Of a DNA stretch of 64,000 nucleotides, positions 52,787-52,871 are shown piece by piece. The position numbers were made by a program, and so were the translations under genes. The notes under the pieces are model-generated. The model ran no database searches and had not been told where the DNA came from. It saw only the letters and a list, made by a program, of their open reading frames with translations. Numbering within the stretch: the first letter of the stretch is position 1; each line of letters begins with the position of its first letter. This stretch comes from Bacteroidota bacterium (GTDB lineage: Bacteria; Bacteroidota; Bacteroidia; Chitinophagales; Chitinophagaceae). The stretch spans positions 1 through 64,000 of the forward strand of contig JAKPSI010000002.1 in the NCBI GenBank assembly GCA_029555415.1, read 5' to 3'.

Positions 52787-52804
52787 GTATGCCTTACGGC
52801 ATAC
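52787..52804 (-). promoter_or_regulatory. Hairpin overlapping the end of the leader frame
   Basis: Perfect stem GTATGCC / GGCATAC with 4-base loop; the last Met-Pro-stop codons of the leader peptide lie in the 5' arm and loop. A ribosome stalled on the preceding Cys codons would change whether this stem forms. Attenuation is inferred. Confidence 0.5.
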
Positions 52805-52871
52805 AGCACATGCAACAAATGCAGCTGCGGTGAGCAGGAGCGTGGAAGTATATGTTTTGTTGCTTGTTCAT
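52794..52871 (-). CDS. Short leader peptide rich in Cys and Met, upstream of metY
   Basis: 25-codon open frame from ATG 52871 to TAA 52794-52796. It starts MNKQQNIYFHAPAHR and ends SCICCMCCMP: five Cys and two Met in the last ten residues. It lies in the long leader between the riboswitch terminator and metY, 90 bases before the metY start, with a hairpin across its stop. Methionine and cysteine are the products or partners of the operon, so a translation-sensing attenuator is the natural reading. No Shine-Dalgarno is seen, as usual here. A chance frame is possible but the composition is striking. Confidence 0.6.
   Translation of the reverse strand: MNKQQNIYFHAPAHRSCICCMCCMP

Follow-up and report, generated by a model that had tools for sequence, protein, structure and literature searches.

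How does a bacterium whose metY gene already stands behind a SAM-I riboswitch come to carry, between the riboswitch and the gene, a further short reading frame rich in cysteine codons, and what could such a frame report to the gene? The question is raised by a stretch of 64,000 nucleotides (the window) from a Bacteroidota bacterium of the family Chitinophagaceae (GenBank assembly GCA_029555415.1, contig JAKPSI010000002.1, positions 1 to 64,000 of the forward strand). In the initial annotation, which was made from the letters of the DNA, a 25-codon frame ending SCICCMCCMP was placed between the riboswitch terminator and metY, with a perfect hairpin over its stop. Both are present on the minus strand as described (Table 1). 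It had further been proposed that the run of Cys and Met codons senses the supply of these amino acids, and that the operon reads SAM and Cys/Met-tRNA in series; these two proposals fared less uniformly, and they are taken up below together with the comparative evidence.

On the minus strand, the elements follow one another in the order SAM-I aptamer, terminator, spacer, putative internal promoter (P2), 25-codon frame, stop hairpin, C-rich stretch and metY. The aptamer scores above the gathering score of its Rfam model (44.4 bits), belongs to the SAM-I class and is the only SAM-I match in the source genome. TIGR01326, the model that identifies metY, bears the family name O-acetylhomoserine aminocarboxypropyltransferase/cysteine synthase. 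The box of P1, the putative promoter of the riboswitch transcript, has one mismatch to TAnnTTTG, and the strict promoter pattern used below gave no match at this site. A 36-nt piece containing the stop hairpin folds at -11.5 kcal/mol (z -2.34), and 4 of 200 shuffles fold equally well. A canonical terminator after the upstream open reading frame (uORF) was sought in the window and none was found. The ATG of the uORF lies 314 nt past the aptamer and behind its own putative promoter, and not immediately downstream as would be expected of a riboswitch-gated uORF. Further upstream, ahead of the riboswitch, the window encodes a 179-aa protein (53440-53979, minus strand) with a weak match to SecA models over about 55 residues.

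Table 1. Features of the metY locus in the window, in the order of the minus strand
Feature	Position	Strand	Details
Putative promoter P1 (riboswitch transcript)	53340..53370	-	TTGG, 19 nt, TTCCTTTG; by eye, low confidence
SAM-I riboswitch aptamer	53185..53300	-	RF00162, 79.8 bits, E 3.6e-17
Intrinsic terminator of the riboswitch	53117..53148	-	fold -18.2 kcal/mol, z -5.08, 0/200 shuffles
Putative internal promoter P2	52879..52911	-	TTTGG 52911-52907, 20 nt, TATTTTTG 52886-52879
Cys-rich leader ORF, 25 codons, MNKQQNIYFHAPAHRSCICCMCCMP	52794..52871	-	ATG 52871, TAA 52794, ends SCICCMCCMP
Cys run CICCMCC, presumed stall site	52803..52823	-	5 Cys in 7 codons
Perfect 7-bp hairpin GTATGCC-GTAA-GGCATAC, stop codon in loop	52787..52804	-	spans last Cys codon and stop
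CCTAC, can pair with GTAGG (52879-52875) just 5' of the uORF ATG	52783..52787	-	tentative
C-rich, G-poor (rut-like) stretch	52730..52786	-	small CCC-GGG stem at 52776-52765
metY, O-acetylhomoserine/O-acetylserine sulfhydrylase, regulated gene	51378..52703	-	ATG 52703; TIGR01326 687 bits, cut-off 495
metX-like homoserine acyltransferase, next gene of likely operon	50305..51372	-	TIGR01392 354 bits, below the cut-off of 500

For the comparison, metY and its upstream DNA were collected from three sources: the 20 best loci among 59 searched relatives, 80 contigs (the best 80 of 573), and the Chitinophagaceae, of which 294 genomes were screened; 134 of these had metY at E <= 1e-150, and 122 entered the analysis. 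After removal of copies and of two loci that were too short, these 207 loci gave 189 distinct metY leaders. At least 5 Cys within 12 residues, behind an in-frame ATG and within 400 nt of metY, were found in 67 of the 189 leaders, compared with none of 189 antisense stretches and none of 945 dinucleotide shuffles; at a threshold of at least 4 Cys the figures were 88 of 189, 6 of 189 and 10 of 945, respectively. A second set, 133 loci from the class and one other family, yielded 126 additional distinct leaders, and here at least 4 Cys within 450 nt of metY occurred in 66 leaders and 1 antisense stretch. Upstream of 225 other gene starts (loci L031-L110), only 6 matches with at least 4 Cys and 3 with at least 5 Cys were seen, and one of these 3 is metY itself in a frameshifted copy. 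Judged by these counts, the Cys-rich frame before metY is real and above chance, and all statistical tests on leaders, of counts as well as of pairing, ignore relatedness. Relatives share the frame, its start, the Cys run and the hairpin, so the idea survived the comparison that the initial annotation had named as capable of refuting it.

In the window's family, the leader follows an arrangement of riboswitch, terminator, promoter and uORF, here called design A. For design A, 77 leaders were pooled that have 3 or more Cys and a stop codon 70-120 nt ahead of metY; a small number belong to other families. A loose pattern placed a candidate -7 box in 71 of the 77. Removal of the 6 leaders lacking the box, of L015, L094 and L107, which by eye are of another type, and of L207, which has no ATG, left 67 leaders for the design-A tests. 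Within 115 nt ahead of the Cys run, the strict pattern TT[TG]G-N18-23-TAnnTTT[GA], of the -33/-7 Bacteroidota type, occurred in 41 of 71 family-type leaders; the shuffles had it in 16 of 1420 cases, and stretches of equal length further upstream in 0 of 71. By its sequence, the leader of the window, with P2, is among those that have the pattern. The uORF ATG mostly lies 7-20 nt past the -7 box; in the window the predicted transcription start is about 3 nt ahead of the ATG. In Flavobacterium psychrophilum, the sigma-A box was placed at -12 to -5 (PMC9723704), and with the same spacing the design-A transcript would be nearly leaderless. Among loci with an Rfam aptamer 200-900 nt upstream, a terminator-like site stands between the aptamer and P2 in 16 of 18, where 0.8 would be expected from shuffles.

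The distance of the aptamer from the gene was compared with the presence of the leader in 152 family-type loci, with aptamers found by Rfam in some and by a custom aptamer model (R1) in others. A leader with at least 4 Cys was present in none of the 22 loci in which the aptamer ends at most 260 nt from metY, in 37 of 59 with the aptamer at 261-900 nt and in 4 of 7 with it further away. It was also present in 22 of 64 loci without a visible aptamer, many of which cover only 900 nt upstream, and the leader was missing in 36 of these 64 and in all 22 loci with a nearby aptamer. From this distribution, the uORF appears to be an independent module. Since the putative promoter stands just before the uORF, a transcript could start past the riboswitch and escape SAM control. 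The proposal of serial inputs consequently holds for the window only in part: with P2 as an internal promoter, only transcripts begun at the riboswitch would be subject to the SAM and Cys inputs one after the other.

Outside the Chitinophagaceae, the aptamer is fused to the uORF (design B). An aptamer model was built from 30 hits and searched over the fetched loci; of the 133 loci L269-L401, 111 gave a match. The counts cover every distinct locus from outside the family that has an aptamer followed by an ATG, 33 from L066-L110 (Rfam) and 103 others. The first ATG lies 6-10 nt past the aptamer in 103 of these 136 loci (24 of 33 and 79 of 103), so that in most non-family loci the uORF starts immediately past the aptamer, as a riboswitch-gated uORF would. 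In 97 of 136 loci (28 of 33 and 69 of 103), the last 14 residues of the first frame (<80 aa) include at least 3 Cys; at least 2 Cys were found in 29 of 33 and 81 of 103, and at least 4 in 27 of 33 and 54 of 103. Fewer than 2 Cys ended the first frame in 4 of the 33 loci from L066-L110 and in 22 of the 103, which form an unselected set. When any ATG up to 25 nt past the aptamer was considered, at least 3 Cys occurred in 100 of 137 loci in frame, against 3 and 9 of 137 in the two shifted frames.

In 87 loci with a Cys frame, drawn from the 126-locus set that was partly chosen for known leaders, the promoter pattern precedes the aptamer 57 times and falls between it and the run once, which indicates that aptamer and uORF are most likely part of one transcript. 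Where the aptamer ends as far as 495-780 nt before metY (e.g., L346, L378, L393, L319), the Cys uORF stays with the aptamer and not with metY. The fusion of aptamer and uORF would make the SAM and Cys inputs truly serial outside the window's family, and it is there that the series proposed by the initial annotation finds its support.

The genes that carry the uORF were counted in one family with the fused design, in which 58 of 60 genomes have SAM-I aptamers. Among the 30 best-scoring fetched aptamers from these genomes, a first frame whose tail contains 2 or more Cys preceded metY in 7 of 10 cases, a metZ/metB-like gene in 1 of 6 (L425), metH in 0 of 11, and homoserine dehydrogenase, metX or an unclear gene in 0 of 3. 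By these counts, the Cys uORF marks sulfhydrylase genes, above all metY, and not SAM-I riboswitches in general.

Several other loci were noted in the course of these searches. In L425 (1613-1998), the aptamer stands before an O-succinylhomoserine-sulfhydrylase-like gene and the fused short frame ends CCCC (MKKDTLYLEISRTYSSVFSCCCC). In L092 (near 3825), a short frame with the Cys cluster QVCCLRCCGC ends 79 nt before a gene whose first residues resemble metX by eye, and on the other strand of L068 (near 4729) a short frame ending IYCCCCC lies 70 nt before an unrelated gene (MTQTTLTGDIQEISRLVG...). Methionine synthase seems to be split, as an aptamer leads into an N-terminal part (346 aa) in L405 and, in a different genome, into a later part in L419. 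Candidates for further Cys leaders in the source genome came from 43 matches to TGYTGYNNNTGYTGY. The 20 that were examined were discarded, as 19 fall inside frames of at least 120 codons on either strand and the twentieth overlaps the start of a 113-aa frame; the metY leader is among the remaining 23. A family-wide hairpin pattern, matched in 69 of 147 genomes, was likewise abandoned: 27 of 30 fetched matches had fewer than 4 Cys in 14 residues, and 3 had more, one of them at metY.

What is kept in the leader was examined in the 67 design-A leaders. The span from the first to the last Cys contains 323 Cys, 35 Ile and 17 Met, a count outside which the Met of the common end CMP falls, and the part before the span contains a single Cys and drifts in sequence. 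Methionine was therefore rejected as the sensed residue; of the Cys/Met sensor first proposed, the recurring Cys run stands, with a pattern that fits the sensing of aminoacyl-tRNA. A ribosome-mediated attenuator is expected to have a short ORF in which codons for one amino acid, linked to the operon, are repeated in a conserved frame; here the amino acid is Cys and the gene encodes a sulfhydrylase. Cysteines that are kept while the remainder drifts are likewise expected of a codon sensor. In 18 independent leader pairs, the Cys columns showed 14 synonymous and 18 non-synonymous differences, the latter outnumbering the former, and differences in other codons were spread about evenly over the three positions (59, 55 and 54). 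The pattern looks like that of a codon sensor rather than a protein, for which the pair test alone is not strong. The sequences support selection on the uORF and its frame, on the Cys run and on the hairpin that follows the run.

A Cys-rich nascent peptide might sense a metal or the redox state instead of Cys-tRNA. Binding of metal by Cys-rich tails is conceivable, sensing of this kind is presumed for the Cys-rich peptides encoded upstream of copper genes, and PMC9973294 describes copper sensing via translational control of a nascent exported protein. The regulated gene, however, makes homocysteine, the run precedes metY and not metH, the spacing of the cysteines is variable (CICCMCC, CCCCCC, CCMCICCPCCC and so on), and the N-terminal part has no conserved sequence, all of which leave this explanation with a small probability.

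The region behind the run was analyzed for RNA structure. In 63 design-A leaders aligned with MAFFT, 86.1% of the 7-pair cells of the stop hairpin were paired; with the 3' arms shuffled among the leaders, the mean was 79.9% and the maximum 83.0%, and none of 2000 shuffles reached the observed value (kinship ignored). In the 17 leaders whose 5' arm differs from ATGCC, own arms paired slightly better than swapped ones (248 of 5000). An anchored test of hairpin pairing, made on 26 loci, did not reach significance (1897 of 10000), and RNAalifold gave no consensus for the full exit region of the 63 leaders. Behind the hairpin, the C/G ratio of the 67 leaders is 2.25, with C exceeding G in 66, and upstream of P2 it is 1.13; at -80 to -25 before metY it is 2.1 in the 67 leader loci vs. 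1.53 in 71 loci without a leader. The leader is thus followed by a C-rich, G-poor untranslated stretch of the type expected of Rho-dependent attenuators. CCC-n-GGG stems were found in 21 of 67 leaders (2.5 expected) and CCC-GGG-CC chains in 11 of 67 (0.8 expected). Terminator-like sites follow the leader in 24 of 67 (3.2 expected), 18 of the 24 being the stop hairpin with a weak T tail, and were seen in 20 of 84 leaders of the fused design (6.8 expected). By these predictions, true terminators after design-A leaders are rare.

Pairing over a longer distance was seen between the segment before the ATG and the segment after the run, which in the 67 leaders pair at -8.13 kcal/mol with their own and at -7.38 kcal/mol with swapped partners (8 of 10000 permutations, kinship ignored). 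The controls gave 462 and 811 of 2000. In the window itself, the leader's own partner is outpaired by 55 of the 66 swapped ones, and long-range pairing before the uORF ATG is proposed only tentatively. Because the pre-ATG segment lies mostly upstream of the predicted P2 start, such pairing could act only in read-through transcripts.

A further explanation is that the TGT/TGC run owes its conservation to RNA pairing, either with a downstream GCAACA or within the hairpin, its translation being irrelevant. In 84 fused-type leaders, drawn from the same partly chosen 126-locus set, the run pairs with its own downstream segment at -15.98 vs. -15.00 kcal/mol with swapped ones (9 of 10000), most clearly by eye in the Chryseolinea-type leaders. 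Yet the run is read in the frame that the ATG past the aptamer opens, and is not seen in the two shifted ones, TGT and TGC interchange in the synonymous differences counted above, and GCAACA, ACAACA or GCAGCA occurs within 90 nt after the stop in only 24 of the 84 leaders; we consider it improbable that pairing alone preserves the run. As an observation made by eye, the Chryseolinea-type leaders (L066, L067, L071, L077, L082, L087, L100, L336 and L337) share an exit motif before metY, which after the uORF stop reads GCAACA, AGC-TA, CTGCC..GTGACAGG and GGTTACGGCT and looks like structured RNA.

The recurrence of the frame beside metY across orders could also reflect a functional Cys-rich small protein, e.g., a thiol or persulfide carrier for MetY. 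Profile searches found no family match for the window's peptide and no significant match for three other peptides, two of which gave one weak Pfam hit each, below the cut-off; lengths are mostly 24-60 aa and the sequence outside the run varies freely, which makes such a protein very unlikely. A chance frame in the AT-rich spacer, where short frames are abundant (109 of at least 20 aa overlap 50500-56500), is hardly credible given the antisense, shuffle and shifted-frame counts above.

The explanation that we consider likely is that a translated leader with a run of Cys codons senses the supply of Cys-tRNA and sets the expression of metY (and metX), with gating by SAM in design B. When Cys-tRNA is ample, the ribosome would pass the run and leave at the stop, after which the C-rich RNA would allow Rho to terminate before metY, or ribosomes would be kept from metY. 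A shortage of Cys-tRNA would instead stall the ribosome on the run, where it would block the hairpin and the access of Rho, and metY would be made. Translation of the leader, stalling-based sensing and the response to Cys are deduced from the leaders' sequences, as is the relay, which may run via Rho on the C-rich stretch or via translation of metY. That starvation switches metY on is a guess, held with a slight lean over the opposite sign. In the fused design, binding of SAM would close the aptamer helix P1 beside the uORF ATG and bar ribosomes from the leader, so that SAM and Cys-tRNA would both feed into a single RNA; that one leader reads both supplies is probable. As MetY belongs to the O-acetylhomoserine/O-acetylserine sulfhydrylase family, Cys is plausible as an end product or as a competitor for sulfide.

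A wider model, to which we give slightly better than even chances, is that the Bacteroidota metY SAM-I riboswitch works via the Cys-codon uORF: SAM would gate the start and Cys-tRNA the finish, the sharing of sulfide between Met and Cys would be decided there, and in the Chitinophagaceae the two inputs would be split by the promoter. If this is true, the leader is a natural two-input RNA device for a metabolite and an aminoacyl-tRNA, and the physiological question behind it is how sulfide is divided between Met and Cys. The two evolutionary wirings, fused and promoter-split, make the logic testable. The leader itself is a short frame of the kind that gene callers easily miss.

As Rfam contains a Bacteroid-trp leader RNA, leader attenuation by itself is probably no novelty among Bacteroidota. 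In F. psychrophilum, of the same phylum as the window, clues for leader-peptide attenuation before amino-acid operons were reported, and the accessible text names no Cys leader or link to SAM-I (PMC9723704); sORFs in long 5' UTRs were described in Bacteroidota in a text that, in its accessible part, names neither Cys nor SAM-I (PMC7366714). A search of the literature, mainly of open-access main texts, found no Cys leader in Bacteroidota and no SAM-I riboswitch with a Cys uORF, in agreement with the initial annotation, to which no described case in the phylum was known.

The nearest relatives in kind are found in Actinobacteria. Cys-codon leader peptides were predicted there before cys and cbs operons, with no conserved terminators and with candidate Rho sites (PMC1262725), and the leaderless polycysteine sORFs of mycobacteria are Cys-responsive attenuators (Canestrari et al., 2020, as cited in PMC13236596 and PMC9094748). 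As far as these sources describe them, both resemble the present leaders in being short ORFs upstream of sulfur genes with a run of Cys codons near the stop; the lack of a conserved terminator and the candidate Rho sites are shared with the actinobacterial leaders, and the nearly leaderless transcript predicted for design A with the mycobacterial sORFs. Unlike them, the present leaders occur in another phylum, precede metY and not a cys operon or cbs, stand beside or joined to a SAM-I riboswitch, and in design A carry a hairpin at the stop codon. As phylum and gene differ, the two groups are presumably convergent.

Control of a short uORF before the main gene by an aptamer is also known from Mycobacterium tuberculosis, in Mbox-rv1805A (PMC12810186) and B12-ppe2 (PMC11260477), and for the Mbox Rho-dependent termination was reported (PMC12810186). 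In the accessible parts of these reports, the uORFs are not described as sensors of amino-acid codons, and ligand and aptamer differ from those considered here. The SAM-I Xcc riboswitch of Xanthomonas likewise combines a SAM-I leader with a second, tRNA-charging input, as it also senses uncharged initiator tRNA; it differs in that its RNA binds uncharged tRNAfMet directly, and no leader peptide or Cys is named in the accessible text (PMC7270179). The Cys-codon leader joined to a SAM-I riboswitch before metY is thus an arrangement for which no prior description was found and of a kind that is known: Cys-codon leaders, described in Actinobacteria, now recur in a second phylum, and outside the window's family they are built into the SAM-I riboswitch.
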